This document shows positions 1,436-29,340 of a stretch of DNA of 50,956 nucleotides, in pieces. Source of the DNA: Acidimicrobiales bacterium (GTDB lineage Bacteria > Actinomycetota > Acidimicrobiia > Acidimicrobiales > CADCSY01); NCBI GenBank assembly GCA_035512495.1, contig DATKDW010000062.1, forward strand, positions 1-50,956, in the 5' to 3' direction. The notes beneath the pieces were generated by a model, which did no database searches, had not been told where the DNA came from, and worked only from the letters and a program-made list of their open reading frames with translations. Both the position numbers and the translations under genes were made by a program. Position 1 is the stretch's first letter. Each line of letters starts with the position of its first letter.

Positions 1436-2539
1436 TCAGAGGCGGGTCGGGGGGGCGGTGCGGGGGCGGGCGAAGCGACCGATCCCGCGGGACGGCGCGC
1501 TGATGATCGATGCCTCGGCGGTGGTGGTGGCGGCCGCGGCCGCTGCCGTGCCCGAGCCCCCGAGGGAACCGAGGAGGCGGGGCGCCCGCACCGGCTGCGA
1601 TCCGAGCCAGAACAGGGCACCAGCGATGGCCATCAGGGTGAGGACGGCGGCGACCTGGGCGGTGCGGCTCTCGTCGGTCAGCGGAGCCTGCTGGGCGGTG
1701 GGCGTGCCGGAGCCGCTGCCCGGGACAGGGGGCGCGGCGATGGCGTCGTCGTCACCGTCGTCCGGGACCTCGACCGGAGGCGCCGGATCGACCGAGAAGT
1801 CGCCCGACGAACCGCCGCCGGACGGGACGGGGCTCGGCCCGGGGTCGAAGCTGAAGTCACCACCCGACGAGCCGCCGCCGTCGCTGGGCTCGAAGCCTTC
1901 ACCGGAGTCGAAGTCGTCGTCGAAGTCGAAGTCGGAGTCCGAGCCGAAGTCGCCGTCGAAGCTGCCGGGACCCATCAGGGTCTCCTCGTCGGGCGCCTCG
2001 AAGGTGATCGAGAACGACGGCGCCCCGTCACGAGGGAGGAGCACCACGTCGATGCCACCGTCGGCGACGACAGACTCCGAGATGAACCAGGTCATCTCCT
2101 GGCCATCCGGTGAGAGCACCCCGGTGCTGGCGCCGTCGCAGTTGGCCTCGGGACGGTCCTCCCACGCGCCGTTCTCCACCGGCTCCCAGTCCGACGTGGC
2201 CGGGCACGCCACGATCTCGGGTGGCTCCCCGGGCGCGGCGAGGGTCGTGCCGGCAACCCGAAGCAGCAGGGTGGCGTTGCCGACGTCGTCGGAGAAGCGC
2301 ATGGCAGAGATGGCCACGTGGCCGCTCGGGTCGTTGGCCACGTAGAGCCCACCGTCGGGGACCGGCACCGGTGGCGGCAGCGGGGCCGCGCCCAGGAGAC
2401 CCGCCTTCGCCTTGTACCACCAGCCGGACTCGGTCGGCGCCTCGGCGCCGGCGGGCATCGGCATGGCCACCACCCCGGCGAGGCCGATGCAGACCACCGC
2501 GGCCAGACGGCAGCTGCGCTGGATCATGCGGGCGGTCAT
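1436..2539 (-). CDS. Unknown exported, C-terminally anchored Asp/Gly/Ser-rich protein of the liv operon
   Basis: I do not recognise the family. The 367-residue protein has an N-terminal signal peptide (about 1-32). A folded-looking domain of about 150 residues follows, beginning with a WWYKAKAG segment and rich in V/I strands. Then comes a low-complexity linker with runs of D, G, S and P. A single membrane helix (about 315-335) precedes a basic tail. The layout suggests an extracytoplasmic domain held near the membrane. The ATG at 2539 overlaps the stop of the fused ATPase gene as ATGA, so it is probably translationally coupled to the transporter. An accessory role for that transporter is inference. 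Confidence 0.72.
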   Translation of the reverse strand: MTARMIQRSCRLAAVVCIGLAGVVAMPMPAGAEAPTESGWWYKAKAGLLGAAPLPPPVPVPDGGLYVANDPSGHVAISAMRFSDDVGNATLLLRVAGTTLAAPGEPPEIVACPATSDWEPVENGAWEDRPEANCDGASTGVLSPDGQEMTWFISESVVADGGIDVVLLPRDGAPSFSITFEAPDEETLMGPGSFDGDFGSDSDFDFDDDFDSGEGFEPSDGGGSSGGDFSFDPGPSPVPSGGGSSGDFSVDPAPPVEVPDDGDDDAIAAPPVPGSGSGTPTAQQAPLTDESRTAQVAAVLTLMAIAGALFWLGSQPVRAPRLLGSLGGSGTAAAAAATTTAEASIISAPSRGIGRFARPRTAPPTRL

Positions 2540-4413
2540 CGGCCGGACGCCTTCAGCGGCTTGCGCCGCCCCGTGGCCTGTTCGGGGGTCACGTCGTCGT
2601 CTCGCACGGGTGCACCCTTTCGATCGGCCTTCGCCGTGGAGCCGGTGTCGTCGCCGGCCGCGCGCTCGCTCGCCGAGGTGCCGGTGGCGGCACCGGAGCG
2701 GTTGATGATGTCGACGTCGCCGCCGAGGTAGGACGATACGACCCGCGGGTCGTTGATGACCACGTCGGGCTCGCCCTCGGACATCACGGAGCCGAGCTCC
2801 AGGGCGATCAGGCGGTCGGACACCGAGGTGATCAGCGGCATGTCGTGCTCGATGACGAGCAGGGCGCACCCGGTCTCGCGCTGGATGCGCTTGAGGAGCG
2901 GCCCCAGGGCCTCGGTCTCCTTCTGGGCCACGCCGGACGAGGGCTCGTCGAGGAGCAGCACAGCGGGGTCGTGAGCGATCGACATGGCAAGGTCGACGAT
3001 GCGACGGCTGCCGGTCGAGAGCTCCGAGACGAACTTGTCGCGGAAGGCGCTGAGGCTCATCAGCTCGATGAGGTCGTCGACGGTGTAGGCGACGTCCTCC
3101 TCGGACTCCTGCATGGCAGGGAGGGCGAGAAGAGCAGCGAGGTGGTCACGCACCTCGATGTGGCGCTCGAGGCCGAGGGCGATGTTCTCGGCGACGGTGA
3201 GCGACGGGAAGATGCGCGCGTCCTGGAACGACCGGCCGAGACCGGCCATGGCGCGGCGGTCGGCGCCCCAACCGGTGATGTCGACGTCGTCGAGGCGGAT
3301 CCGACCTCCGTCGAGGGCCAGCAGCCCGGAGATGAGGTCGAAGATGGTGGTCTTGCCGGCACCGTTGGCCCCGATGAGCCCGATCGTCTCGCCCTTGTGG
3401 AGGGTGAAGCTGACGTCGTTGACAGCGGTGATGCCGCCGAAGCGCTTGGTGAGGCCGTCGACCTGGAGCGCAGGCTCGGTGGAGATCGGAACAGCGCGCG
3501 TGGCGGAGGCCGGCACCGGGGCGCCGGTCGCGGACACCTCACCCTCGACCCCTGCGGCGTCGTCGGCACCGGAGAGGAACACCGCCCGGAGGATGTCGCC
3601 CCGGGAGAGCAGCTCCTCGGGCTTGCCGGAGAACCGGACCTCGCCCTTCTCCATGAAGTACGCCTTGGTGGCGATGGTGAGGGCCACGTTCACCGACTGC
3701 TCCACCAGGATGATCGTGCACCCCGAGGCGTGGATCTCGCGGACGATGCCCAGCAGCTGCTCGACGATGGTCGGCGCCAGCCCGAGGGAGAGCTCGTCGA
3801 TGATGAGCAGCTTGGGCTTGGCGACGAACGCCATGCCCACGGCCAGCTGCTGCTGCTCACCGCCGGAGAGGTTGCCGGCCATCTGGTCCCAGCGCTCCCG
3901 GAGGCGGGGGAACTGATCGAGGACCTCCTCGATGCGGGCCTTGACGTCGGCGGGGTCGTCGTTGGCGTAGAGCCAGGTGCTGGCCTTGAAGTGCTCGGCC
4001 ACCGTGAGGGTCGGGAACACGGCCTTGCCGCCGGGCACCTGGACGATGCCCATCTTGGCGGCGTCGACGGCACCCACCCGGGAGATGTCGTTCCCGTCGA
4101 AGGTGATGGTGCCGCCGATGGGCGTCACCAGGCCCGAGATGGCCTTGAGGAGGGTCGACTTGCCGGCGCCGTTGGTGCCGAGCAGGGCCACGATCTCGCC
4201 CTGCTGCACGTCGAGGTCGACCCCGAAGAGCACCTGCACCTTGTCGTAGGCCACCTCGACGCCCCGGCACGACAGCAGCGGGGCTTCGCCTTCGGCCGGG
4301 GCCGATTCGCGCCCGGCGGGCACGTCGATGGGGGTGGTGGGGTCTGGGTCGACGGCCACGCTGCCGGCCTCGCTCGTGGCCTGGCCCTCGGCCCCTCCCT
4401 TGCGCAGCCTCAT
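2536..4413 (-). CDS. Fused LivF-LivG double ATPase of a branched-chain amino acid-type ABC transporter
   Basis: One 625-residue polypeptide holds two complete ABC domains. The first (about 45-280) is LivF-like: Walker A GTNGAGKST at about 79, signature LSGGEQQQ, Walker B followed by DELSLGLAP, and the LivF-typical LVEQ switch. The second (about 325-570) is LivG-like: Walker A GANGAGKTT, a degenerate signature LSTGSRR, Walker B LLLDEPSSG and the H-loop IEHDM. A charged tail of about 50 residues ends the protein. LivF and LivG are normally separate chains; no stop codon separates them here. It powers the fused permease encoded just upstream, whose stop overlaps this ATG (ATGA at 4410-4413). Substrate class (amino acid, urea or other) is not determined. 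Confidence 0.93.
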   Translation of the reverse strand: MRLRKGGAEGQATSEAGSVAVDPDPTTPIDVPAGRESAPAEGEAPLLSCRGVEVAYDKVQVLFGVDLDVQQGEIVALLGTNGAGKSTLLKAISGLVTPIGGTITFDGNDISRVGAVDAAKMGIVQVPGGKAVFPTLTVAEHFKASTWLYANDDPADVKARIEEVLDQFPRLRERWDQMAGNLSGGEQQQLAVGMAFVAKPKLLIIDELSLGLAPTIVEQLLGIVREIHASGCTIILVEQSVNVALTIATKAYFMEKGEVRFSGKPEELLSRGDILRAVFLSGADDAAGVEGEVSATGAPVPASATRAVPISTEPALQVDGLTKRFGGITAVNDVSFTLHKGETIGLIGANGAGKTTIFDLISGLLALDGGRIRLDDVDITGWGADRRAMAGLGRSFQDARIFPSLTVAENIALGLERHIEVRDHLAALLALPAMQESEEDVAYTVDDLIELMSLSAFRDKFVSELSTGSRRIVDLAMSIAHDPAVLLLDEPSSGVAQKETEALGPLLKRIQRETGCALLVIEHDMPLITSVSDRLIALELGSVMSEGEPDVVINDPRVVSSYLGGDVDIINRSGAATGTSASERAAGDDTGSTAKADRKGAPVRDDDVTPEQATGRRKPLKASGR

Positions 4414-17150: not shown

Positions 17151-18803
17151 ATGACCCGCGGGCGCGACATCTTGCTGGAGGTGCTGCGCACCGAGGGGGT
17201 GCGCCACCTCTTCGGCAACCCGGGCACCACCGAGCTGCCCCTCGTGGACGCCCTGGTGGGCGCCGACGACCTCGAGTACGTGCTCGCACTGCAAGAGGCG
17301 ACGGCCGTCGGGATGGCCGACGGCTACGCCCAGGCCACCGGGCGCCCGGCGTTCCTGAACCTGCACACGTCGGCCGGCCTCGGCAACGCCGTCGGCAACC
17401 TCACCAACGCCCAGGCCAACGGCACCCCGCTCGTGGTCACGGCCGGCCAGCAGGACCGCCGCCACCTCCACCACGACCCCCTCCTCGGCGGCGACCTGGT
17501 CGGCCTGGCCGCCTCGGTATCGAAGTGGACCCACGAGACCTCCACCCTCGGCGAGCTGGGCACGGTGCTCCGACGGGCGTTCCACGACGCCGCCTCGGCG
17601 CCGGCCGGGCCGGTCTTCGTATCCATCCCCATGGACGTGCTCGAGGAGGAGGGCGACCACCAGGTGCCCCCGCCGTCGCAGCTCCACCGGGCGACCGTGC
17701 CCGCCGGCCTCACCCTGGAGCGCCTGGCCGACCGGCTGGCCACGGCCCCGGTGGGGAGCCTGGCGATCGTGGCCGGCGACGAGGTCGCCCCGGCCGGCGT
17801 GGACCCCCTGGTGAACCTGGCCGAGACCCTGGGGTGCCGGGTCCACGGGTCACCGCTCCACTCCACCACGGTCTTCCCCACCGACCACCCGCTCTGGGCG
17901 GGGCCGCTGGCACCGGCGGCCTCCGGCATCAACGCCACCCTGGCCGCCTACGACACGGTGCTCCTGGTGGGCGGCCGCGCCTTCATGGTCTACCCCTTCA
18001 CCCCCGGGCCGGCGGTCCCACCCCACGTCGCCCTCCTCCACCTCTCCCCCGACCCCGCCCAGCTGGGCCGCACCTGGCCCACCGACCTCGGAGTGGTCGG
18101 CGACCCGGCCGAGACCCTCCGCGCCCTACTCGTCGCCGTCCACGGCAGGGTCGACGCCACGGCGGCCGAGACGGCGCTGGCCGAGGCCCGCACCACGGCG
18201 GAGGCGGCGGCCGCCCGCTTCGATGCCAAGGCCCTGGCCGCCTACGACCAGCAGCCGATGGCCCCCGCGGCGGCCGCCCACGCCTTGGTCCGGGCACTCC
18301 CGCCCGACAGCGTGGTCGTCGACGAGGCCATCACCACGGGGTCGCACGTCCGCGGCTACCACCGCACCGCCCGCGCCGGCCGCTACTTCTTCTGCCGCGG
18401 CGGCGGGCTGGGCTGGGGCATGCCCGCCGCCCTCGGCGTCTCGCTCGGCTACGACCGGGAGCCGGTCCTGTGCGTGGTGGGCGACGGTTCCGCCATGTAC
18501 TCGCCCCAGGCGCTGTGGACGGCGGCGCGCCTCGACCTACCGGTCACCTTCGCCGTCGTCGACAACGGCCAGTACCTCATCCTCAAGAACGCCCTGCGGG
18601 GCATGGGCGGCCGCAGCGCCGAGACCGGCACCTTCGTCGCCATGGACCTCGACCGACCGGCCATCGACTTTCCGGCGCTGGCCCGCTCCATGGGCGTCCC
18701 CGCCACATCGGTCGAGCGGGCGGGCGACGTCGGCGACGCCGTGCGCGCCGCCCGGCAGGCGGGCGGGCCGCACCTCCTCCACCTCCCCATCGCCGCCCCG
18801 TGA
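17151..18803 (+). CDS. Thiamine-diphosphate-dependent enzyme, benzoylformate decarboxylase-like
   Basis: A 550-residue member of the acetolactate synthase/pyruvate decarboxylase superfamily, closest by motif to benzoylformate decarboxylase (MdlC). Seen: GNPGTTELPL near the N-terminus, the catalytic Glu in LQEATAVGMADGYA (about 48), and HTSAGLGNAVGNL with the active-site His. The ThDP-Mg2+ motif starting GDGSAMYS and ending VVDNGQY is near residue 440. In Pseudomonas MdlC a Ser follows GNPG (Thr here), and a second His lies in a VFRYHQY segment. The matching place here reads AFMVYPF with no His. Substrate is therefore uncertain; a 2-oxoacid decarboxylase or lyase is likely. It follows the peptide transporter genes by 28 bases. 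Confidence 0.85.
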   Translation: MTRGRDILLEVLRTEGVRHLFGNPGTTELPLVDALVGADDLEYVLALQEATAVGMADGYAQATGRPAFLNLHTSAGLGNAVGNLTNAQANGTPLVVTAGQQDRRHLHHDPLLGGDLVGLAASVSKWTHETSTLGELGTVLRRAFHDAASAPAGPVFVSIPMDVLEEEGDHQVPPPSQLHRATVPAGLTLERLADRLATAPVGSLAIVAGDEVAPAGVDPLVNLAETLGCRVHGSPLHSTTVFPTDHPLWAGPLAPAASGINATLAAYDTVLLVGGRAFMVYPFTPGPAVPPHVALLHLSPDPAQLGRTWPTDLGVVGDPAETLRALLVAVHGRVDATAAETALAEARTTAEAAAARFDAKALAAYDQQPMAPAAAAHALVRALPPDSVVVDEAITTGSHVRGYHRTARAGRYFFCRGGGLGWGMPAALGVSLGYDREPVLCVVGDGSAMYSPQALWTAARLDLPVTFAVVDNGQYLILKNALRGMGGRSAETGTFVAMDLDRPAIDFPALARSMGVPATSVERAGDVGDAVRAARQAGGPHLLHLPIAAP

Positions 18804-18817
18804 CTACCCCCACCCTG

Positions 18818-18869
18818 CGTCTGGGCGGTGATCGTGGTCGCTCGAGCGGCCAGGTTCACCGCCCAGACG
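18818..18869. terminator. Strong bidirectional hairpin between convergent genes
   Basis: CGTCTGGGCGGTGA (18818-18831) and its exact reverse complement (18856-18869) form a 14-bp perfect stem. The 24-base loop contains its own palindrome CGCTCGAGCG. Runs of C and G outside the stem can extend the pairing. It sits between the TPP enzyme (plus) and the SRPBCC gene (minus), and the SRPBCC stop codon lies inside the stem. No U-tract is present on either side. Confidence 0.75.
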
Positions 18870-19326
18870 GGGGTTCGGGAGGTGGGCCGCCGGCCACACA
18901 GGCCAGGAGGCGGGGGCGGGAGCGCTCGATCTCGTCACGGAGCATGCGCTCGAGGACGGGGCCCCCGAACGCCCCGCCGTAGTGGAGGCCCATGGTGAGG
19001 CGACTGCCGCCGTCGTGGGGATCGACGGTGGCCTCCAGCAGCCACGTCGAGTGGCGGCGGCCGTCGAGCTCGCGCCGCTCGAAGCGGACGGCCTCGCCCG
19101 GTTGGAGGGTGCTGCGAACCATGCGCAGGCGCTTCGAGCGGGCAAGTGGACCGAGGCGGCCGCGCAAGTCGACCAGCCAGGCTGGACCCGGATCGCCGTC
19201 GTGGGGCGGAGCCGGCTCGGCGCGCGGGACGATCTCGAGCCACTCGGGGTAGCGACCGAGGTCGCTGACCCAGGCGGTGAGCACGGACGGCTCGCATGGC
19301 GCATCGAGGGTGGCGGTGATGTCCAC
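18856..19326 (-). CDS. SRPBCC (START-like/polyketide cyclase-type) family protein
   Basis: A 156-residue protein with the helix-grip pattern of the SRPBCC superfamily: an N-terminal strand VDITATLDAPCE, then VSDLGRYPEWLEIVPRAE, and later strands with RFERRELDGRRHSTWLLEATV and a long C-terminal helix (GGPVLERMLRDEIERSRPRLL). Such proteins bind hydrophobic ligands; no specific function can be given. I chose the GTG at 19326, which begins the first strand and has GAGGT about ten bases upstream. The longer frame to 19473 runs into the divergent promoter region. It is convergent with the TPP enzyme and divergent from the antiporter island. Confidence 0.8.
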   Translation of the reverse strand: MDITATLDAPCEPSVLTAWVSDLGRYPEWLEIVPRAEPAPPHDGDPGPAWLVDLRGRLGPLARSKRLRMVRSTLQPGEAVRFERRELDGRRHSTWLLEATVDPHDGGSRLTMGLHYGGAFGGPVLERMLRDEIERSRPRLLACVAGGPPPEPPSGR

Positions 19327-19457
19327 GCGCCTGTCTACCTCACCCGGGTGTGCACGCCACACCAGGCATCCCGTGGCATCGTGTCGGACGTGACCGAGAC
19401 GGGCGGCACCCCCTCCAGCACCGGGAGCCAGCCGACCGCCGGGGGAAAGGCTGGCCC

Positions 19458-21653
19458 GTGAACCTGGTGGCACCCAGCGAGCACCAGCTGCTCGTCTTCT
19501 GGACGACGCTGGCCGTCCTCCTCCTCGTGGCCCGCCTCCTGGGTGGGGCCATGCGGCGCATCGGCCAGCCTGCCGTCGTCGGCGAGCTGACGGCAGGCCT
19601 GCTCCTCGGACCGTCAGTGCTCGGCCAGGTGGCGCCGGGGGCGACCGCCTGGCTGTTTCCCGCCGACAACGTGCAGTCCGGCATGCTCTTCACCGTCGGC
19701 TGGATAGGCGTGGTGCTCCTCCTCGTCGTCACCGGCTTCGAGACCGACCTCACGCTCATCCGCCGCCTCGGGTCGGGCGCGGCGTTCGTGTCCGCCGGCA
19801 GCCTCCTGGTGCCCATCGCGCTGGGCGCCGTCGTGGGCTTCCTCCTTCCTGGCATCTTCGTCGCGGATCCCGACCAGCAGGTCGTCTTCGGGCTCTTCAT
19901 CGCGACGGCGTTGAGCATCTCCTCGCTGCCGGTGATCGCCAAGATCCTCGGCGAGCTCGGCCTCATGCGGCGCAACTTCGGTCAGATGACGCTCGCGGCC
20001 GGCATCGCCAACGACGTGGTCGGGTGGGTCCTCCTCGGACTGATCGCCGGCCTGGCGCAGGCGGGTGAGATCGCCCTCGGCCGCTTGGCGCTCACGCTCG
20101 CCGGTATGACGCTGTTCCTCGTCGGATCGCTCACCGTGGGCCAACGAGCGGTCGACGTCTTCCTGCGCCGACTGCGCCGAACAGAGGCGGGAGTACCCGC
20201 CACGATCACCACCTACGTCGTCATCGCTCTGCTCGCCGGTGTCGTCACCCAGGCGCTCGGGGTCGAGGCGGTCCTCGGTGCCTTCGTCGCGGGCATCGTC
20301 CTCGGCCGCTCGAAGTTCCGACAAGTCGAGGTCGAGCACCAGCTCGAGTCAGTGACGGCCGCCGTGTTCGCACCGGTCTTCTTCGCCACCGCGGGATTGC
20401 GGGTCGACCTCGCCCTGCTGGCCGAACCTCAGGTCCTCTTCTGGTCGGCTGTTGTCGTTGCCGTCGCCAGCGTCTCGAAGATCCTCGGTGCGTGGATCGG
20501 CGCCAAGGCGGCGCGGCTTCCCGGCCGCGAGGGGCTTGCGCTCGGGATCGGGCTCAACGCCCGTGGCGCCTTCGGGCTCATCATCGCCACCGTCGGGCTG
20601 TCGCTCGGCGTTCTGAACCAGGCGTCGTACACCGTGCTGGTGATCATGTCGATCGTCACATCGATGATGGCGGGACCGATGCTGCGCTGGGTCGTACGGT
20701 CGTGGGCCGGCACCGTTGAGGAACAGAAGCGGCTCCTCCGCGAGGAGACGCTCAGCCGCAACGTGATGGTGAAGCCGACGCGCTTCCTCCTCCCCACGAC
20801 CGGAGGACCCAACTCGATCGTTGCCGCCCAGGTGATGCACCTGGCGTGGCCACCCGATGTGGGAGCCACGCTCCTCATCGCCGGCAAGGACGTGGACGAG
20901 CAGGGGATCGAGGCCATCACCTCGGTGCTCGGGGACCGCAGCACCGACATCGAGCGGGTGTCGTCGGAGGACGCGCCCGACGTCATCCTGCGGGAGGCGC
21001 GGCTGGGCTACGGGGCCATCGGTGTCGGGGCGCCGGACGAGGCACTCGGGCGTTGGATCCTCTCCCCTGTCGTCGACGAGCTCCTCCAGGAGACGTCGGT
21101 GCCGGTCGTGATCGTGCGCAGGGCGCGCAACCTCGACCGACCGACGCCAGGCGCGTTCGCGCGCGCCGTCGTGCCGGTCTCGGCCGCGAGGCCGTCGCGC
21201 GCGGCGCAGGAGATCGCCGGCCACCTGAGCGCCAACATCGGCACCGAGGTCGTCCTCACCCACATCGCCGCACCCGCGCGCGACGCGCTGACCCGCCGGC
21301 TGCGGGGCGTCTTCGGGCGTCGGCCCGACGCTCCTGAGGCCGCCGAGGCATCGGGTGGCAGCAGCACGTTGGTAGACGCCCAAGGCGACGTCGCCACGAA
21401 GATCCTCGAACGGGCAGAGGCCCTGGCCGACGAGCTCGGCGCCCGCTCCCGCTCAGTGGTCCGCCGGGGCACGTCCAAGCCCGACGAGATCATCCAGACC
21501 GTGATCGACGAGGACGCCGACCTGGTGGTCCTCGGTGCCGACCTCCGCCAGCTCGAGGGCCGGCCGTTCCTCGGCCACGGCGTGGAGCATGTCCTCGACG
21601 CCTGTGCGGTCACCGTCGTGGTCGTGGCCACACCGACCGGTGACCCGGGATGA
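19458..21653 (+). CDS. CPA2-family cation/proton antiporter with C-terminal Usp-like domains
   Basis: A 731-residue protein. An N-terminal Na+/H+ exchanger domain of about 12-13 helices (about 8-420) is followed by a soluble region resembling two universal-stress-protein folds (about 450-590 and 600-725; segment YGAIGVGAPDEAL and later DADLVVLGADLRQ). Core motifs: GQPAVVGELTAGLLLGPS near the N-terminus and IANDVVGW, which places an Asn-Asp pair where CPA2 proteins carry the ion-binding acid. The GTG at 19458 follows an AAAGG; the frame upstream is open but not protein-like. The stop overlaps the next antiporter's ATG (ATGA). Likely role: K+ or Na+ exchange for protons, regulated by its soluble tail. 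Confidence 0.9.
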   Translation: MNLVAPSEHQLLVFWTTLAVLLLVARLLGGAMRRIGQPAVVGELTAGLLLGPSVLGQVAPGATAWLFPADNVQSGMLFTVGWIGVVLLLVVTGFETDLTLIRRLGSGAAFVSAGSLLVPIALGAVVGFLLPGIFVADPDQQVVFGLFIATALSISSLPVIAKILGELGLMRRNFGQMTLAAGIANDVVGWVLLGLIAGLAQAGEIALGRLALTLAGMTLFLVGSLTVGQRAVDVFLRRLRRTEAGVPATITTYVVIALLAGVVTQALGVEAVLGAFVAGIVLGRSKFRQVEVEHQLESVTAAVFAPVFFATAGLRVDLALLAEPQVLFWSAVVVAVASVSKILGAWIGAKAARLPGREGLALGIGLNARGAFGLIIATVGLSLGVLNQASYTVLVIMSIVTSMMAGPMLRWVVRSWAGTVEEQKRLLREETLSRNVMVKPTRFLLPTTGGPNSIVAAQVMHLAWPPDVGATLLIAGKDVDEQGIEAITSVLGDRSTDIERVSSEDAPDVILREARLGYGAIGVGAPDEALGRWILSPVVDELLQETSVPVVIVRRARNLDRPTPGAFARAVVPVSAARPSRAAQEIAGHLSANIGTEVVLTHIAAPARDALTRRLRGVFGRRPDAPEAAEASGGSSTLVDAQGDVATKILERAEALADELGARSRSVVRRGTSKPDEIIQTVIDEDADLVVLGADLRQLEGRPFLGHGVEHVLDACAVTVVVVATPTGDPG

Positions 21654-23590
21654 GCCTGCCACTCGACGAACCCTCACTGGTCTTCGTCGTCCTGTTCGCC
21701 ACCGCGCTTGTCGCGCCCATCGCCGCCCAACGGGCAGGCCTGCCGGGGATCATCGGCCTCATCGTCGCCGGCCTGGTCCTCGGCCCCAACGCCCTCAACG
21801 TCGTCGAGCGGGACGGCACGGTCGCCGTCCTCGGTGGGGTGGGCCTGCTGTACCTGGTCTTCCAGGCGGCCCTCGAGCTCGACCTCGACGACTTCGTCCG
21901 GCACCGCAACCAATCGCTGACCCTCGGGGCGATCTCCTTCACTCTCCCCTTCGCACTGGGCATCGTCGTCCACCAGGCGATCGGGTTCTCGACCATGGCG
22001 GCCATCCTCCTTGCCTCATGCTGGGCCTCGCACACCCTGCTCACCTACCCCGCCCTCCAGCGGATGGGCGCGGTCGGCAACCGGGCGGTGGCCACCACGG
22101 TGGGCGCCACGATCGTCACCGACATGTCGGCCCTCACCGCCCTGGCCCTGGTGGTGGCTGCCCACCAGGGCGCGCTCGACGCCACCTTCGTCCTGACCTT
22201 CCTCCCGAGCGTCGCCGCCGTCCTGTTCGTCATCCTCTGGGTGCTCCCCCGCGTCGCCAGGTGGTTCTTCACCGGACTCGGCCAGGACCGCACCGTGCGC
22301 TTCCTCTTCGTCGCCGTCGCGCTCTTCGGCTCCGCCGGCCTGGCCGAGCTGGCCGGCATCCAGGCCATCGTTGGCGCCTTCCTGGCCGGGCTCGCCCTCA
22401 ACCGGCAGATCCCCAACAGCGGTCAGCTGATGTCGCAGATCTCGTTCTTCGGTGCGTCGTTCCTCGTGCCCATCTTCCTCATCTCGGTGGGCATGCTCGT
22501 CGACCCCGCCGTCGCGATCGCCGACCCTGCTTCACTCGGTCGGGCTGCGGCCTTCACCGCGGTCGTCGTGACCGGCAAGGGCCTCGCGGCCGTGATCGCC
22601 GGGAGGCTGTTCGGCTACCAGAGCGCCGAGATCGGCACCGTGGCCTCCCTCTCGATCGCCCAGGCGGCCGCCACCCTGGCAGTGGTCTTCGTCGGCCTCC
22701 AGGTGGGCCTCATCGACGAGGGGACCGTCAACGCCGTCGTGCTCGTCATCCTCTCGTCGTGCCTGGTCGCCTCCTTCGCCGCCGCTCGTTGGGGCCCCCT
22801 GCTCCCGCGACCTCCCATCAAGGAGTCCACCATCGGCCAGACCGTCCTGGCGCCGGTGATCTCCCCAGAGCTCTCCGGGACGCTCATGCGCATCGGCGCC
22901 CTCCTGGCACGGCCAGACAGCGGCCGCGTCGTCCCCCTGACCGTGCTCGACCTCGAGACCGGCTCCGACGTGGTCGAAGACCATCGCACCCGGCTCATCG
23001 CCGAGTCGGAGCGCATGGTCCTCGCCGCGGGGGCTGATGCCCAGAGCGTGGTTCGCCTCGACCTCACCGCCAGCGCCGGCATCCTCCACGCTGCGGTCGA
23101 GCAGTCGGCGACCTGCCTGCTGATGGGCTGGCGGGGCTACACCACCCGCAAGGAGAGCTTCTTCGGCGAGCGGGTCGACGCCCTCCTCGCGCTCTCGCCC
23201 GTCCCGGTCATCGTCTGCCGGCAGGGCCGAGACGACGACATCGCCCGCGTCGTCCTCTCCGTGACCAGGCGCGACCTCACCCCCGCCGGCCTGCCGGGCC
23301 TCGAGCTCGCCGCCCTCGTCGCGACCCGGATCGCCGTCGGCGCGGGGATCCCGATCGTCGTGGTCGCCCAGGAGGAGACGACCCTGGTGCCCACCCTCGT
23401 CAACGGGTCCCGCGACCCACAGGTGGTGATCGACGAGCGCCACCCCCGGGAGGCGCTGCCGGACACGACCGGGCCGGGCGACCTCGTCGTCACCGGGATC
23501 TCGCCCCTACGCGCCGGCCTCGGTCACAACGTCCCCCGCCTCGCCCGAGCCCTCCCCGACAGGACCTTGCTCGCGGTCGCCCCCCGGTAG
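21650..23590 (+). CDS. CPA2-family cation/proton antiporter, second copy, with degenerate Usp-like tail
   Basis: A 646-residue membrane antiporter: about 12-13 helices (1-390), then a soluble tail of about 250 residues. Motifs: AGLPGIIGLIVAGLVLGPNALN near the start, and GATIVTDMSALTALALV, where a Thr-Asp pair replaces the Asn-Asp of its neighbour. IQAIVGAFLAGLALNR and VSVGMLVD-type segments also match the family. The tail contains a LLMGWRGY strand and loosely resembles Usp or nucleotide-binding folds. The two CPA2 copies are divergent, not a recent duplication. Translation is coupled to the preceding antiporter through ATGA. Confidence 0.88.
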   Translation: MSLPLDEPSLVFVVLFATALVAPIAAQRAGLPGIIGLIVAGLVLGPNALNVVERDGTVAVLGGVGLLYLVFQAALELDLDDFVRHRNQSLTLGAISFTLPFALGIVVHQAIGFSTMAAILLASCWASHTLLTYPALQRMGAVGNRAVATTVGATIVTDMSALTALALVVAAHQGALDATFVLTFLPSVAAVLFVILWVLPRVARWFFTGLGQDRTVRFLFVAVALFGSAGLAELAGIQAIVGAFLAGLALNRQIPNSGQLMSQISFFGASFLVPIFLISVGMLVDPAVAIADPASLGRAAAFTAVVVTGKGLAAVIAGRLFGYQSAEIGTVASLSIAQAAATLAVVFVGLQVGLIDEGTVNAVVLVILSSCLVASFAAARWGPLLPRPPIKESTIGQTVLAPVISPELSGTLMRIGALLARPDSGRVVPLTVLDLETGSDVVEDHRTRLIAESERMVLAAGADAQSVVRLDLTASAGILHAAVEQSATCLLMGWRGYTTRKESFFGERVDALLALSPVPVIVCRQGRDDDIARVVLSVTRRDLTPAGLPGLELAALVATRIAVGAGIPIVVVAQEETTLVPTLVNGSRDPQVVIDERHPREALPDTTGPGDLVVTGISPLRAGLGHNVPRLARALPDRTLLAVAPR

Positions 23591-23658
23591 CCGGCCGGCG
23601 ACCGACCGTCGAGCCGCAAGTACTCTCGGCCCATGGGCGATCGAGGAGCGGTCACCGG

Positions 23659-25161
23659 GTGAACGCCGCCCTCCCCGGTGATGCCGCTCTGCTGGCGGGC
23701 GCTGCCCTGCTCGTCGTCGGCGTCCTGCTGAGCGGCTTCGCCGATCGCTTCCGGGCGCCAGGTCTATTGCTCTTCCTCGGCCTCGGCATGCTCCTCGGGG
23801 ACGACGGGCTCGCCTTCATCCGGTTCTCCGACGCCGAGGCGGCACAGCGCATCGGCGTGGTCGCCCTGGTGGTGATCCTGTTCGAGGGTGGACTCTCCAC
23901 CTCGGTCACCGACGTCCGCCGCGTCGCCGCCCCAGCGGCGTTGCTGGCCACGGTCGGCGTCGTCGTGACCGCCCTGGTCGTGGCGGGCGGGGTCCTCCTG
24001 ATCACCGACACCTCACCGACCACCGCCCTGCTGATCGGGGCCGTGGTCGCCTCCACCGACGCCGCCGCCGTCTTCGCCGTCCTCCGCCGAGCGCCGACGC
24101 CCCGCCGCCTCAACTCCCTGCTCGAGACCGAGTCGGGCGGCAACGACCCCATGGCGGTGCTGCTCACCGTGGGGGTGCTGGCCTCGTGGTCGGGCGATCC
24201 CGACGTCACCGAATGGGCGCTGTTCGGTGCCCGCCAGCTCGGCGGCGGCCTCGTCGTCGGCTTGGCCGTGGGGGCCGCCGGCTCCTTCGCCGTCCAACGT
24301 CTCCGCCTCGACAGTGCCGCCCTCTACCCGGTGCTCGCCCTGGGGCTGGCCGGTCTCGCCTACGGGGCCGGGGCCGGGGTGGGGGCCTCGGGGTTCCTCG
24401 CCGTCTACGTGACCGGGCTGGTGCTCGGCTCCACCGCGCCCCGTCAACGGCGGTCCATCCGGCGGTTCCACGAGGGCCTGGCCTCCGTGTCGCAGATCGC
24501 CCTCTTCCTGCTGCTCGGGCTGCTCGTGTTCCCCGCTCAGCTTCCGGCCGTTGCCATCACCGGCCTGGCCACAGCGGGCGTGCTGATCTTCCTCGCCCGC
24601 CCGCTGGCCGTGCTGACCTGCCTGCCGTGGTTCGGCTTCGACCGCCGCGAGCTCACCTTCAGCGCCTGGGCCGGGCTGCGGGGGGCGGTGCCCATCGTGC
24701 TGGCCACCTTCCCGCTCATTGCCGGCTACCCCGACGGCGACCTGGTCTTCAACGTGGTGTTCTTCGTGGTGCTCGTCTCCGCCGCTCTCCAGGGCCTCAC
24801 CGTGGGGCCGCTGGCCCGGGCGCTCGGGCTCGAGGCGGGCACGACGGCGTGGGATGCCGTCGCCGACCTCGTGTCGATCGACAGCGCCGGCGTCGACGTG
24901 GTGGAGCTGGAGATCACCTCCTCGTGCGGGGTGGCCGGGCGAACCCTGCGCGAGGTGCCGCTGCCGGGGACGGCACGCGTGGCCGCCGTGCTCCGTGACG
25001 ACGGCGTGCGCGTCCCCGACGGCAACACCCGACTGGCACCCGGCGACCTCCTCATCGTGGTGACGGCCAGCGACGCGGGCGGCCCCGCGCTGCTCACGGC
25101 ATGGGCGGAAGGACCCCGCGCCGACCCCCTGGCACCGCCCCCCGACGGCGGGCAGGCATGA
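23659..25161 (+). CDS. CPA1-type potassium/proton antiporter with TrkA-C domain (NhaP2/CvrA-like)
   Basis: A 500-residue antiporter of the NhaP2 (CvrA) kind: about 12-13 helices (1-395) and a C-terminal TrkA-C (RCK-C) regulatory domain (about 410-480; VVELEITSSCGVAGRTLREV and later APGDLLIVV). The ion-site motif TESGGNDPMAV contains the Asn-Asp pair of electroneutral CPA1 antiporters, and FEGGLSTSV is also characteristic. The GTG at 23659 is preceded by GAGGAG about 10 bases upstream. A nine-codon frame (23633-23662) ends across this start. Probable role: K+ efflux in exchange for H+, gated by ligand binding to TrkA-C. Confidence 0.9.
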   Translation: MNAALPGDAALLAGAALLVVGVLLSGFADRFRAPGLLLFLGLGMLLGDDGLAFIRFSDAEAAQRIGVVALVVILFEGGLSTSVTDVRRVAAPAALLATVGVVVTALVVAGGVLLITDTSPTTALLIGAVVASTDAAAVFAVLRRAPTPRRLNSLLETESGGNDPMAVLLTVGVLASWSGDPDVTEWALFGARQLGGGLVVGLAVGAAGSFAVQRLRLDSAALYPVLALGLAGLAYGAGAGVGASGFLAVYVTGLVLGSTAPRQRRSIRRFHEGLASVSQIALFLLLGLLVFPAQLPAVAITGLATAGVLIFLARPLAVLTCLPWFGFDRRELTFSAWAGLRGAVPIVLATFPLIAGYPDGDLVFNVVFFVVLVSAALQGLTVGPLARALGLEAGTTAWDAVADLVSIDSAGVDVVELEITSSCGVAGRTLREVPLPGTARVAAVLRDDGVRVPDGNTRLAPGDLLIVVTASDAGGPALLTAWAEGPRADPLAPPPDGGQA

Positions 25162-25171
25162 TGGCGCTCTC

Positions 25172-25549
25172 GTGCCCCTCGAGATCACCCGCTACTCCAT
25201 CCTCGCCTTCCTGGCCGTCCTGGTGCTCGCCGCTGCCGCCGGCGGCGCTTCGGCCCTCGTCGTGGGCTGGGCCCGGTCGATCGTGCGAGCGGCACCTGCC
25301 GTTGCCGGCGCCGGCCTGGCGCTGACGAGCCTCGCCGCCCTCAACCTGGCCGTGCCCCGGACGTGCTCGATCGAGCCCGAGGTCCGGAACCGCCCCGTGA
25401 TCTCCGCCCTGGTCGGCGACGCCTGCGAGCGGACCGCCCTGGGCCAGGTGCAGCTCGTCCTCCTCCTCGGGGTCAGTACCTCGCTGGCGGTGCGGACCGC
25501 GACCACCAGACCGCCACGCCGGGCGCTCGGCGCCGTCGCCGACCGGTAG
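25172..25549 (+). CDS. Small membrane protein of unknown function in the antiporter island
   Basis: I do not recognise the family. The 125-residue product has one strong N-terminal helix (about 8-32), a second hydrophobic segment (about 38-60), a middle region with two cysteines (TCSIEPE, GDACERTALG) and a third hydrophobic stretch (about 90-108). It begins with GTG at 25172, ten bases after the CPA1 antiporter stop, and ends 26 bases before the khtT-like gene, so it is part of the same operon. The two Cys residues could form a disulfide outside the membrane. It may be a subunit of one of the antiporters (inference). Confidence 0.6.
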   Translation: MPLEITRYSILAFLAVLVLAAAAGGASALVVGWARSIVRAAPAVAGAGLALTSLAALNLAVPRTCSIEPEVRNRPVISALVGDACERTALGQVQLVLLLGVSTSLAVRTATTRPPRRALGAVADR

Positions 25550-25575
25550 CCTCGCTCCGACCGAGGAGGATCCCC

Positions 25576-26061
25576 ATGGCCGAGGTGCGTGAGACCAAGC
25601 TGCCGGGCGTCGGGGTCCGGCACGACTTCGTGACCAGCGAGGGCGAGCGGATCGGCGTCCTGGTGCACCGCACCGGCCGCCGCGAGCTCCTCGTCTACGA
25701 CCGCGAGGACCCCGACTCGTGCCGCCAGGTCGTGCACCTCGACGGCGACGACACCCGAACCCTCTCGGAGGTGCTCGGCTCCTCCCCTGTGAGTGAGGCG
25801 CTCGGCGAGCTCCAACAGGAGGTGGAAGGCCTCACCATCGACTGGATCACCGTCGAAGACGCCTCTACCGCCGTCGGCCGCACGCTCCGCGATGCCGCGC
25901 TCCGTGCCCGCACGGGCGTGTCGATCGTCGCCGTGCTGCGCAAGGGCGAGACCATCCCCTCGCCAGGCCCCGACTTCGTCCTGGAGGGGGGCGACACCGC
26001 GGTCACGGTCGGCACCGCCGCTGGCACCCAGGATCTCACCAACCTCCTCCACCACGGGTAG
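25576..26061 (+). CDS. khtT: KhtT-like TrkA-C regulatory subunit of a K+/H+ antiporter
   Basis: A 161-residue soluble protein like KhtT (YhaT) of Bacillus: an N-terminal domain (MAEVRETKLPGVGVRHDF, about 1-75) and a C-terminal TrkA-C domain (about 85-160; AVGRTLRDAALRARTGVSIV and later DFVLEGGDTAVTVGT). In Bacillus, KhtT controls the antiporter KhtU and responds to nucleotides and pH. The ATG at 25576 has GAGGAG eight bases upstream, an unusually good site here. It is followed four bases later by the KhtU-like gene, as in known khtTU operons. Confidence 0.88.
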   Translation: MAEVRETKLPGVGVRHDFVTSEGERIGVLVHRTGRRELLVYDREDPDSCRQVVHLDGDDTRTLSEVLGSSPVSEALGELQQEVEGLTIDWITVEDASTAVGRTLRDAALRARTGVSIVAVLRKGETIPSPGPDFVLEGGDTAVTVGTAAGTQDLTNLLHHG

Positions 26062-26065
26062 CGCA

Positions 26066-27250
26066 GTGGTCATCGCTGCCGCCTCGGCCGAGGTGGCGCT
26101 GATCTTCGTCGATCTGGGCCTGGTCGTCGTCGGCCTCGCCTTCTTGGCGCGGACCTCTCACCGGCTCGGGATCAGCCCCATCCCGTTCTACCTCGTGGCC
26201 GGCCTGTTCTTCGGCGGCGGCGGCATCGCCGCCATCGACCTGGGCGAGGACGTCATGGAGCTGGGATCGGAGATCGGTGTCGTCCTGCTCCTGCTCACCC
26301 TGGGCCTGGAGTACACCGCCGAGGAGCTTGGCGCCGGGCTGCGCACCGGTCTTCCCTCGGGGATCGTCGACATCGTCGCCAACGGCGTGCCGGGCCTGGT
26401 CGCCGGGATGGCCCTCGGCTGGGACGTCCGGGCCTCGATCCTCCTCGGGGGTGTCACCTACATCTCCTCGTCGGGGATCATCGCCAAGGTCCTCGGGGAG
26501 CTCGATCGGCTCGGCAACCGCGAGACGCCAACGGTGCTGACGATCCTCGTCATGGAGGACCTGGCCATGGCCGTGTACCTCCCGGTGGTCGCGGTCCTGC
26601 TCGCCGGCGGGGCGCTCGCCAGCGGGCTCGTCTCGGTGGGAGTCGCCCTCGCCACCGTCACGGTGGTGCTCGTCGTCGCGCTCCGGCTGGGCCACCGCAT
26701 CAGCCAGGTGATCTTCAGCCAGTCCGACGAAGCCCTGCTCCTGAGCATCCTCGGCCTCACGCTGCTGGTGGCGGGCCTGGCCCAGCAGCTGCAGGTCTCC
26801 GCGGCCGTCGGCGCCTTCCTGGTGGGCATCGCCGTGGGCGGCCCGGTGTCCGACCGTGCCTCGGCCCTCATCGGGCCGCTCCGGGACCTCTTCGCCGCCA
26901 TCTTCTTCCTCTTCTTCGGGCTCCAGGTCGACCCGGCCAACCTCCCGCCCGTGGCAGGGGTCGCCATCGCCCTGGCGGTCGTCACCGCCATCACCAAGCT
27001 GGGCACCGGCTGGTGGGCAGCCCGGCGGGCCGGCATCGCCCGGCCGGGCCGGATGCGCGCCGGCACCGCCCTGGTCTCGCGCGGCGAGTTCTCGATCGTG
27101 ATCGCCGGACTGGGCGTCTCCGCCGGGATCGAGCCACAGCTCGGACCCCTCTCGGCCGCCTACGTCCTCGCCCTCGCCATCGCCGGGCCCCTCCTCACCC
27201 GCTACGCCGACGACATCGCGCGGCGCACCGCCCGCCCGAGCAGGACCTGA
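26066..27250 (+). CDS. khtU: KhtU-like CPA2 K+/H+ antiporter
   Basis: A 394-residue, roughly 12-helix antiporter without a soluble tail, as expected for the KhtU/YhaU type that relies on a separate KhtT subunit. Motifs: GISPIPFYLVAGLFFGG, LTLGLEYTAEELG, and TILVMEDLAMAVYLPVV with a Glu-Asp pair at the ion site. VSAAVGAFLVGIAVGGPVS and the RAGTALVSRGEFSIVIA stretch also fit the family. The start is GTG at 26066, four bases after the khtT-like stop, which implies coupled translation. It is the last gene of the antiporter island and converges on the RsbW-like gene 31 bases away. Confidence 0.88.
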   Translation: MVIAAASAEVALIFVDLGLVVVGLAFLARTSHRLGISPIPFYLVAGLFFGGGGIAAIDLGEDVMELGSEIGVVLLLLTLGLEYTAEELGAGLRTGLPSGIVDIVANGVPGLVAGMALGWDVRASILLGGVTYISSSGIIAKVLGELDRLGNRETPTVLTILVMEDLAMAVYLPVVAVLLAGGALASGLVSVGVALATVTVVLVVALRLGHRISQVIFSQSDEALLLSILGLTLLVAGLAQQLQVSAAVGAFLVGIAVGGPVSDRASALIGPLRDLFAAIFFLFFGLQVDPANLPPVAGVAIALAVVTAITKLGTGWWAARRAGIARPGRMRAGTALVSRGEFSIVIAGLGVSAGIEPQLGPLSAAYVLALAIAGPLLTRYADDIARRTARPSRT

Positions 27251-27281
27251 GGGATCCGATGGGGCGGAGACCGCGGCGGTG

Positions 27282-27728
27282 TCAGGAGGTGTGCGCGACC
27301 TCGAACCACACGACCTTGCCGCCGTCGATCGGATCGGCACCCCACGACAACGCCAGCTGGTCGACGAGGAAGAGGCCCCGGCCGCCGACCTGGTCATGGC
27401 CAGGCACCTCGGAGATGGGGAGGAATGCGGAGCCGTCGGCGACCTCCACGCGGATGACCTCCGGGCCAACCTTGACGTCGAGGCGCAGCTCGGTGCGGGC
27501 ATGGAGGAGGGCGTTGGTCACGACCTCGGTGACCAGCAGGGAGACCAATTCGATCGTCTCGTCGGCCCCACAGCCGTCCGCCAGGGCACGCGCCACCAGG
27601 CGGCGGGCGGCCCAGGCACTGTGACGCTCGGGCGGGAGGGCCTCTGAGAGATCGATGCCGGGGCCATACCCACACGAGGAGCAACCGGAACAACAGGTGC
27701 TCGGCGGGTCGGGGGACGGTGCCCCCAC
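27282..27728 (-). CDS. RsbW-like ATP-binding protein (HATPase_c) with N-terminal cysteine cluster
   Basis: A 148-residue serine-kinase/anti-sigma-type protein of the GHKL fold: N-box LLVTEVVTNALLHA, ADGSAFLP (G1), and GGRGLFLVDQLALSWG (G2). Such proteins bind a sigma factor or phosphorylate an anti-anti-sigma factor; no partner is encoded next to it. Before the domain comes STCCSGCSSCGYG, a CCxxCxxC cluster that could bind metal. The only usable start after the tRNA gene is GTG at 27728. The open frame reaches back through tRNA-Leu to 27851, but that part is tRNA sequence. The GTG lies inside a hairpin that also looks like the tRNA terminator, so the exact start is uncertain. Confidence 0.75.
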   Translation of the reverse strand: MGAPSPDPPSTCCSGCSSCGYGPGIDLSEALPPERHSAWAARRLVARALADGCGADETIELVSLLVTEVVTNALLHARTELRLDVKVGPEVIRVEVADGSAFLPISEVPGHDQVGGRGLFLVDQLALSWGADPIDGGKVVWFEVAHTS

Positions 27729-27753
27729 CGCCGCCGGAGGGCGGCGGCTGGGG
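27723..27753 (-). terminator. Hairpin after tRNA-Leu
   Basis: CCCCA plus GCCGCCG (27723-27736, with a two-base bulge) pairs with CGGCGGC plus TGGGG (27742-27753), leaving a five-base loop. On the minus strand it starts 22 bases beyond the tRNA 3' end. It overlaps the proposed GTG of the RsbW-like gene. An 11-base word GGGTTGCGTGC is repeated at 27751 and 27767 between hairpin and tRNA. Confidence 0.5.
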
Positions 27754-27774
27754 TTGCGTGCAGCGGGGGTTGCG

Positions 27775-27857
27775 TGCGGCGGGTGGGATTCGAACCCACA
27801 TGCCCCGAAGGACAGAGGCTTTTGAGGCCTCCGCGTCTGCCGTTCCGCCACCGCCGC
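27775..27857 (-). tRNA. tRNA-Leu, anticodon CAA
   Basis: The minus strand folds as a class II tRNA. The 7-bp acceptor stem GCGGCGG/CCGCCGC is perfect, with A as discriminator base. The D arm has the Leu-type GCGGAACGGCAGACGC, and the anticodon stem GAGGC/GCCTC encloses loop CTCAAAA. There is a long variable arm, and the T arm is GTGGG-TTCGAAT-CCCAC. The anticodon CAA (27822-27824) reads UUG. No CCA is encoded. A TACACT hexamer on the minus strand at 27870-27875 could be its -10. Confidence 0.95.
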
Positions 27858-27949
27858 GCGCGCCGCCAGAGTGTAGGAGGACGGGACCCGACTCCGGTGC
27901 GCAGCGGCCCCAGTGGGCCCCGGCGACCCGAGTCACTAGTCTCGCCGAG

Positions 27950-28087
27950 GTGGGCGCGAAGGGACGACGACGGAGGCGACCGCCGTGGTGGCTGGTGGCG
28001 CTGGCCGCGGCCGGGATCCTGGCGGGCTACCGCCATCGCCGCCTCGGCGCCGCCGAGGGCGGACCGATGCCCACGCCGCCTCGGTGA
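27950..28087 (+). CDS. Possible small basic single-pass membrane protein
   Basis: A 45-residue product: a basic N-terminus (KGRRRRRPP), one hydrophobic helix (WWLVALAAAGILAGY, about 13-27), then a short basic/polar tail. It starts at GTG 27950, divergent from tRNA-Leu, and ends 65 bases before fabD. The positive-inside pattern and clean stop make it plausible, but there is no strong ribosome site. Small size means chance cannot be excluded. Function unknown. Confidence 0.45.
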   Translation: MGAKGRRRRRPPWWLVALAAAGILAGYRHRRLGAAEGGPMPTPPR

Positions 28088-28152
28088 AACCTCCCCGGTA
28101 GGGACGAGGTCGGAGCAAGAGGCGGGCAGCACGGGACATCGAGAGGGTTGAG

Positions 28153-29340
28153 ATGCTGGCGTTCACATTTCCGGGACAGGGATCGCAACGTCCGGGCATG
28201 GGCGCGGCATGGCTCGACCACCCCTCGTGGGAGCTGGTCGGCGAGGCCTCCGAGGTCGCCGGGCGCGACGTGGCCCGCCTGCTCCTCGAGGCCGACGTCG
28301 ACGAGCTGAAGCAGACCCGCAACGCCCAGCTCACCACCTTCGTCGCCAGCCTCGTCGTCCTCGACGCCGTGGAGCGGGTCGGCGTCGCTCCGGGGATCAT
28401 GGCGGGGCACAGCCTGGGCGAGTACAGCGCCCTGACGGCCACCGGTGCCCTGTCGTTCGCCGACGGCGTCCGGATCGTGGCCGCCAGGGGTGACGCCATG
28501 CAGGACGCCACCGAGGAGCGACCCGGCACCATGGCCGCCATCCTCGGCCTCGACGACGACGACGCCGATGCCGCATGCCGCAAGGCCGACGGTGACGTGT
28601 GGGTGGCCAACTTCAACGCGCCCGGCCAGGTCGTGATCTCCGGCGGCGTCGACGCCGTGGCGGCCGCCTCCGATGCGGCCAGAGGCCTCGGCGCCAAGAA
28701 GGTGATGCCGCTGCCGGTGAGCGGGGCGTTCCACACGCCGCTGATGGCCTCGGCGCGCGACCGCCTGCGGGAGGCCATCGCCCAGGTGACCCTGCGCGAA
28801 CCCGATGTCGCCGTGGTGGCCAACATCGACGCCCGTCCCCACACCGACCCCACCGAGTGGAGCGGGCTGCTCTCGGCCCAGCTGTGCAGCCCCGTGCGGT
28901 GGCGCCAGTCGGTGCAGCGACTGATCGATCTCGACGTCGACAGCATCGTCGAGCTGGGCCCCGGCGGGGTGCTCACCGGCATGGCCAAGCGGATCAGCCG
29001 AGAGACCCGCTCCGTGGCCGTCGCCACCCCCGACGACCTCGACCACCTGCTCGAGCTCCTCGCCGGCGAGCCTGCCGCCGCCGCCAACCAGCCCGACGGA
29101 GAGCACCTCTACATGACCGAGCGCATGGTGGTGAGCCCCACCGCCGGCGTCTTCACCCCCGCCCAACCCTGGCTCGGCGGCTCCGAGGGGGCGACCGTGC
29201 AGGTCGGCGACCTCGTCGGCCACGTGGGCGACCACGAGGTTCGCTCGCTCTTCGCCGGGACCGTCATGGGGCTGATCGCCGTCGAAGGCGAGCGCGTCAC
29301 CCCGAGCCAGCCCATCGCCTGGCTGCGCGTCAACCAGTGA
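28153..29340 (+). CDS. fabD: Malonyl-CoA:ACP transacylase fused to a lysine-less biotinyl/lipoyl-like domain
   Basis: Loads malonyl groups from CoA onto acyl carrier protein for fatty-acid elongation in the cytoplasm. The FabD domain covers about 1-310: FPGQGSQ near the start, active-site Ser in GHSLGEYSAL (about 89), the Arg in VAARGDAMQ, and the catalytic His in SGAFHTPLM. Normal FabD is about 310 residues; this one is 395. The extra C-terminal part (about 325-395) has the pattern of a barrel-sandwich hybrid domain: VVSPTAGVF, VQVGDLVGHVG, FAGTVMGLIAVEGERVTPSQPIAWL. It contains no lysine, so it cannot be biotinylated or lipoylated. First gene of the fab operon; the ATG at 28153 follows a GAGAGGG. 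Confidence 0.93.
   Translation: MLAFTFPGQGSQRPGMGAAWLDHPSWELVGEASEVAGRDVARLLLEADVDELKQTRNAQLTTFVASLVVLDAVERVGVAPGIMAGHSLGEYSALTATGALSFADGVRIVAARGDAMQDATEERPGTMAAILGLDDDDADAACRKADGDVWVANFNAPGQVVISGGVDAVAAASDAARGLGAKKVMPLPVSGAFHTPLMASARDRLREAIAQVTLREPDVAVVANIDARPHTDPTEWSGLLSAQLCSPVRWRQSVQRLIDLDVDSIVELGPGGVLTGMAKRISRETRSVAVATPDDLDHLLELLAGEPAAAANQPDGEHLYMTERMVVSPTAGVFTPAQPWLGGSEGATVQVGDLVGHVGDHEVRSLFAGTVMGLIAVEGERVTPSQPIAWLRVNQ

Follow-up and report, generated by a model that had tools for sequence, protein, structure and literature searches.

A row of four cation/proton antiporter genes that looks lineage-specific in an Acidimicrobiales genome

Six genes, here called A to F, follow one another head to tail on the + strand over 7.8 kb (positions 19458-27250) of contig DATKDW010000062.1 from an Acidimicrobiales bacterium (GenBank assembly GCA_035512495.1), and four of them encode cation/proton antiporters (CPA). 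The window, that is the whole stretch of DNA analysed, is the first 50,956 bases of this 199,659-base contig and has an even G+C content of 68-75%; the source is a 2.8 Mb draft assembly in 97 contigs, 96% complete with 3.25% contamination. Families were assigned by Pfam and NCBIfam scans of the translations, and ion sites by alignment to NapA, PaNhaP/MjNhaP1 and KefC. The genes of the row, with the residues of their ion-site motifs, are as follows (Usp, universal stress protein).

Gene A, 19458..21653, + strand: CPA2 antiporter with a C-terminal Usp region, 731 residues; I-S-S-L / N185-D186 / K341.
Gene B, 21650..23590, + strand: CPA2 antiporter with a tandem-Usp-like tail, 646 residues; A-S-H-T / T157-D158 / K310.
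Gene C, 23659..25161, + strand: CPA1 antiporter of the NhaP2/CvrA type with TrkA_C, 500 residues; S132-T-D-A135 / E158 / N162-D163 / R314.
Gene D, 25172..25549, + strand: small membrane protein, 125 residues.
Gene E, 25576..26061, + strand: KhtT-like cytosolic subunit with TrkA_C, 161 residues; Shine-Dalgarno-like AGGAGG upstream.
Gene F, 26066..27250, + strand: KhtU-like CPA2 antiporter (PF00999), 394 residues; I-S-S-S / E164-D165 / K311.

Both A and B combine an antiporter domain with a Usp domain, each above its gathering score (PF00999 at 175.2 bits followed by PF00582 at 44.6 bits in A, 172.5 and 31.7 bits in B). Their membrane parts align over almost the whole length to NapA, a CPA2 antiporter (NapA/KefC structures 4bwz, 5bz2 and 8bxg), from which they differ in the ion-site pair (N-D in A and T-D in B as opposed to D-D) and in their C-terminal region, since A and B carry Usp tails whereas NapA has no tail and KefC an RCK domain. 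An AlphaFold2 model of B (mean pLDDT 83.1) fits 5bz2 with a Z-score of 40.6 and an rmsd of 3.3 over 375 aligned residues. The tail of the model resembles the tandem universal stress protein TTHA0350 [3ab7; TM-score 0.74 by target length], with the difference that in B it is fused to an antiporter; it has a Glu after the third Gly of the nucleotide motif. Gene C passes the curated cut-off of NCBIfam NF003716 (‘potassium/proton antiporter’; 498.8 against 355 bits) and also matches PF00999 and TrkA_C. It shares the CPA1 fold, S-T-D-A, E5, N-D, R8 and the TrkA_C tail with the NhaP-II/CvrA K+/H+ antiporters (NF003716; excerpt of PMC6181914), among which the protein is ordinary and differs in its neighbours only.

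Residues 4-148 of the 161 in E align to Bacillus subtilis KhtT (7agv, E 1e-21), and the nearest solved structure to F is KefC. A cytosolic RCK_C subunit encoded directly before a KhtU-like CPA2 antiporter is likewise the arrangement of KhtTU in B. subtilis and of CpeAB(C) in Streptomyces venezuelae (excerpt of PMC10117811), and the E-F adjacency recurs in relatives. Unlike those systems, E-F stand in a row with three other antiporters, E has no signature Asp for cyclic di-AMP (c-di-AMP), and the small gene D, which elsewhere is not tied to KhtTU, lies upstream of E. The D protein has two or three hydrophobic stretches and no Pfam or other family match. A preliminary description, made from the sequence alone, had named this set as two CPA2-Usp antiporters, an NhaP2-type CPA1 protein with TrkA-C, a small membrane protein and a KhtT-KhtU pair; the Pfam and NCBIfam scans and the structure alignments bear this out. 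The close packing it described is equally real: A and B overlap by 4 bp, and the gaps are 68 bp (B-C), 10 bp (C-D), 26 bp (D-E) and 4 bp (E-F).

Among 246 genomes of the order, the own genome (G000) counted in, A-type genes occur in 71, B-type in 13, C-type in 32 and F-type in 67. At least two types are present in 50 genomes and all four in three (G000, G068 and G140), and the full set lies in one place in none of the 245 others, a gene-order count from which draft contig breaks hide some neighbours. Of the 49 other genomes with more than one type, only G037 brings two of them to within 10 kb of each other; the next closest pair, B and C of G017, is 15.9 kb apart. The G037 genes form a KhtT-KhtU-A row (E-F-A; L183:7925-11895). 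No such antiporter group is found in the 11 other genomes of the family, and at 24 loci of B relatives in genome_contigs the adjoining genes never include A, C, E or F. At one locus of a C relative (L065) ‘solitary’ is a slight overstatement, as the hidden Markov model scan of the neighbourhood missed a second, divergent PF00999 gene (G001:C60:17470-18603). The row is not a conserved operon. It looks lineage-specific, each kind of transporter in it being already known. The preliminary description was right to call the set unusual; its own synteny test, conservation of the gene order, goes against it (0 of 245), and conservation lends a single operon no support.

A true six-gene operon would be one selected module for pH and K+ homeostasis, delivering exchangers of different ions and set-points in fixed proportion. 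The single strand, the gaps of -4 to 68 bp, the close coupling of A-B and of E-F and the four differing motif types are all in keeping with it. A scan of 18700-28300 for sigma-70-type promoters and terminators found neither, which is also what an operon predicts for terminators, but chance alone would give only 0.2 and 1.2, respectively, so the silence is uninformative. We nevertheless regard such a module as unlikely: the set occurs in no other of the 246 genomes, D lies apart from antiporters in a relative (G007), and the B-C gap holds a promoter-like motif and a small open reading frame (ORF), listed here.

Possible internal start, 23621..23662, + strand: TACTCT (23621-23626), 6 nt, then a 9-codon ORF from ATG 23633 to TGA 23662.

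The stop of this mini-ORF overlaps the GTG start of C, within the 68-bp gap. A TANNNT hexamer stands 5-8 nt before the called start of 4 of the 49 genes in the window, as against 8 of 3,027 ATG/GTG triplets overall, so the motif is probably used here; these four genes do not include C. A second transcription start before C is plausible, and the row is probably read as two units, A-B and C-D-E-F.

The origin of the parts is best followed together with the two genes that flank the row.

Polyketide-cyclase/SRPBCC-like gene (PF10604), 18856..19326, - strand: divergent from A.
HATPase (RsbW-like) gene, 27282..27851, - strand: converges on F.

In trees, A and F are sister to orthologues from the same host family (SH-aLRT 96 and 97), C is sister to a gene of G161 (98) and B to a gene of G198 (95/90), each from another family. 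A and F thus track the host family and B and C do not; for the latter two the origin is less clear and may be transfer or uneven loss. Five relatives have the polyketide-cyclase-like gene next to A or to a gene resembling A. In G004 and G009 an A orthologue (68-69%) lies behind the same divergent gene (62-68%) with no B-F after it. In G003, G005 and G006 (L058, L059 and L071) the A slot is occupied by another CPA2-Usp-like protein (38-47%), whose site is D-D; it looks as though one antiporter had replaced another there. In G007 a relative of D lies divergent beside the polyketide-cyclase-like gene (53%); PF00999 matches once in this genome, and searches for A, B, C and F gave no hit there. The row thus combines genes that track the host family with others whose history is less clear, in a slot that in relatives already holds an antiporter or D.

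Neutral accretion offers another account of this mixture, in which transporters without joint function gathered at a site that tolerates new genes, flanked by the polyketide-cyclase-like gene on one side and the tRNA-Leu/fab region on the other. It would explain why B and C do not follow the host family and why the slot varies in relatives (a D-D A-like gene in G003, G005 and G006, D only in G007). The own genome, however, has five PF00999 (Na_H_Exchanger) matches and four of them lie in the row, a grouping that random placement would hardly produce, and all frames and all sites are intact; we consider this account improbable. The draft state of the assembly, with its 97 contigs and measurable contamination, raises the question whether pieces of different genomes were joined. 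Against such an artefact stand the length of the contig, its even G+C content and the fact that A and F are closest to genes from genomes of the same family, which together make it very improbable indeed.

Two more specific routes of assembly were considered. KhtTU sits, in four relatives from two genera, between a proteasome ATPase gene and a neighbouring protease gene, which we take to be Mpa and MarP; in two further relatives it adjoins MarP where the contig ends, and other genera carry it at other places. In the own genome the MarP-like gene (50% identical) lacks an adjacent KhtTU, and the Mpa match begins at base 9 of its contig. A relocation of KhtTU from this interval into the row was not retained, since these positions give no direction of movement. 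The idea that B-F had been inserted between A and a HATPase gene downstream was dropped because relatives have their HATPase gene (~39% identical over ~100 residues) in the orientation of A; the one here lies beyond F on the opposite strand.

Alignment to solved antiporters places the pair at motif positions 6 and 7 as N185-D186 in A, T157-D158 in B, N162-D163 in C and E164-D165 in F, confirming the Asn-Asp, Thr-Asp, Asn-Asp and Glu-Asp pairs described before; the eighth position is Lys in A, B and F and Arg in C. The essential pair of Asp at position 7 and Lys at position 8 is kept in A (D186, K341) and B (D158, K310), and at position 6, where electrogenic exchangers of the NapA type have Asp, A has Asn and B has Thr. 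According to the excerpt of PMC6181914, an eight-residue rule for CPA proteins takes S-T-D-A as K+-type (NhaP-II) and Ser or Thr at position 4 as K+-like, and links Asp at position 6 with electrogenic exchange. Gene C carries the entire CPA1 motif of this rule (S1-T2-D3-A4, E5, N6-D7, R8). The rule as excerpted predicts that C is K+-type, that F and B are K+-like (Ser/Thr at position 4) and that A, with Leu at position 4, is not; A, B and C are without the acidic sixth residue that it associates with electrogenic exchange.

Among relatives scoring above 140 bits the pair is E-D in 29 of 29 F-type and N-D in 11 of 11 C-type proteins, N-D in 4 and D-D in 3 of 7 A-type proteins, and T-D in 17 of 37 B-type proteins. 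The ion-site pairs are thus mostly family traits. The preliminary description had taken the differing pairs to imply different ions or stoichiometry. This holds to the extent that the eight-residue rule, as excerpted, separates the four proteins; an ion tuning inside the cluster does not follow, because the pairs mostly mark the family.

Our preferred reading, to which we give a probability of roughly 0.6, is that the row is a lineage-specific array of four independent proton-coupled monovalent-cation exchangers. We favour assembly because the types normally lie apart and because A in relatives is not followed by B-F; genes once scattered would have come to lie beside A, and the benefit of joint control is the probable reason why the row persisted. 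K+ efflux in exchange for H+ uptake is predicted both for C, an NhaP-II type, and for F together with E, a KhtTU/CpeAB type, with the cytosolic TrkA_C/RCK_C domains as gates. A and B may perform a similar exchange, A perhaps of Na+ and B perhaps of K+, with the Usp tails as putative gates. In a cell that is alkaline, K+-loaded or under osmotic downshift, the four together would take up protons and lower cytoplasmic K+ and Na+. Such an array is a ready set for asking whether bacteria stack exchangers of differing ion preference and so widen their control of pH and K+, although taken alone it is of modest weight, a curiosity of one lineage built from known parts.

Several points weigh against this reading. 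Four residues are a weak predictor of ion selectivity. Draft contigs conceal some neighbours, and the comparison set included no further member of the genus. G011 carries a C-type gene almost at the end of a contig, ~6 kb away from the orthologues of the two genes that precede A; some of this neighbourhood may therefore predate the assembly proposed here. Finally, in the RCK_C domain of E the c-di-AMP signature Asp-x-Arg has Ala in place of the Asp, with the Arg kept, and by eye the Asp is present in none of 26 aligned E relatives.

KhtTU and CpeAB respond to c-di-AMP, which KhtT and CpeA bind (excerpt of PMC10117811), and the own genome encodes a c-di-AMP cyclase domain (PF02457, 93.8 bits). 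Binding of c-di-AMP by E was nonetheless rejected because the signature Asp is absent, and for the same reason the ligand of E may be a different one. The missing residue weighs against control by c-di-AMP, not against descent from the KhtT family. A role for D as counterpart of KhtS/CpeC was also rejected, since its G007 relative lies beside the polyketide-cyclase-like gene and a KhtU search of G007 was empty. D and this relative (L082:4423-4779), both small membrane proteins, have a loop with the pattern C...RNRP...C in common.

The most surprising result concerns the relatives of B and lies outside the window. The Asp at position 7 is conserved in 94% of the superfamily (excerpt of PMC6181914). 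B itself keeps it (D158), but 19 of 37 B relatives have Thr, Asn or Val instead and no acidic residue in that helix segment. In a tree computed without the two pair columns all 19 group as a single clade (100/99), with the Asp-bearing group that includes B as its neighbour; the clade comprises metagenome-assembled genomes (MAGs) of Nitriliruptoraceae, three genomes from the order of the window and a further actinobacterial MAG. B and its relatives share an invariant Lys and a polar element whose third residue is His in most of them; many also have a Usp motif of the G-x-x-G type. Nei-Gojobori estimates on stop-to-stop frames give dN/dS of ~0.07 to 0.25 for seven Asp-less gene pairs and 0.27 and 0.33 for two Asp-bearing pairs; the Asp-less genes look selectively maintained. 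Both Pfam domains are kept in 5 of 5 Asp-less proteins scanned. An AlphaFold2 model of one of them (L032, 1556-3508; mean pLDDT 81.3) fits 5bz2 with a Z-score of 42.6 and an rmsd of 3.0 over 373 aligned residues, which suggests that the fold is kept, and at L031 an Asp-less copy (1704-3659) and an Asp-bearing copy stand in tandem.

It is possible, and we put it forward tentatively, that in the B family (A-S-H-T, T-D, K) a sister branch lost the transport Asp once and kept the fold, the Lys and the Usp tail under selection. The Asp-less proteins may then be former antiporters serving as membrane sensors or regulatory partners, or exchangers of unknown coupling, and B would be their active cousin in the array. 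Transport in the superfamily is thought to need this Asp, so a branch maintained without it would, if the reading is true, be a transporter-derived sensor or a rule-breaker, and would matter more than the array. A literature search, of partial coverage and no proof of absence, returned no paper on Asp-less CPA2-Usp proteins or on such an antiporter array.

Several of the Nitriliruptoraceae MAGs belong, going by their names, to what we take to be a soda-lake sediment series. These presumed soda-lake relatives of B give a weak hint of the saline or alkaline setting that had been suggested for the row, but the nearest are 40-47% identical and come from another group, and the suggestion is not upheld. 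The B-type slot is repeated in many of the loci L031-L040, L043, L044, L053 and L054 of these MAGs; its order is presumably an RF3-like GTPase gene, an MFS-like gene, one or more B-type genes and then a Fur-like gene on the other strand. In G068 a STAS-domain gene (L165:11679-12017) lies directly before an Asp-bearing B relative, with a 4 bp overlap.

Further out from the row, a thiamine-diphosphate enzyme gene also lies upstream. On the other side, the listed 5' end of the HATPase gene overlaps a tRNA-Leu(CAA) gene (27774-27857), so its true start is probably further in, and a fabD-like gene follows beyond both. In the FabD-like protein (28153-29340) Acyl_transf_1 covers residues 4-290 of 395; the ~100 extra C-terminal residues, without a Pfam match and without a clear attachment lysine, resemble by eye a domain of the biotinyl/lipoyl type.

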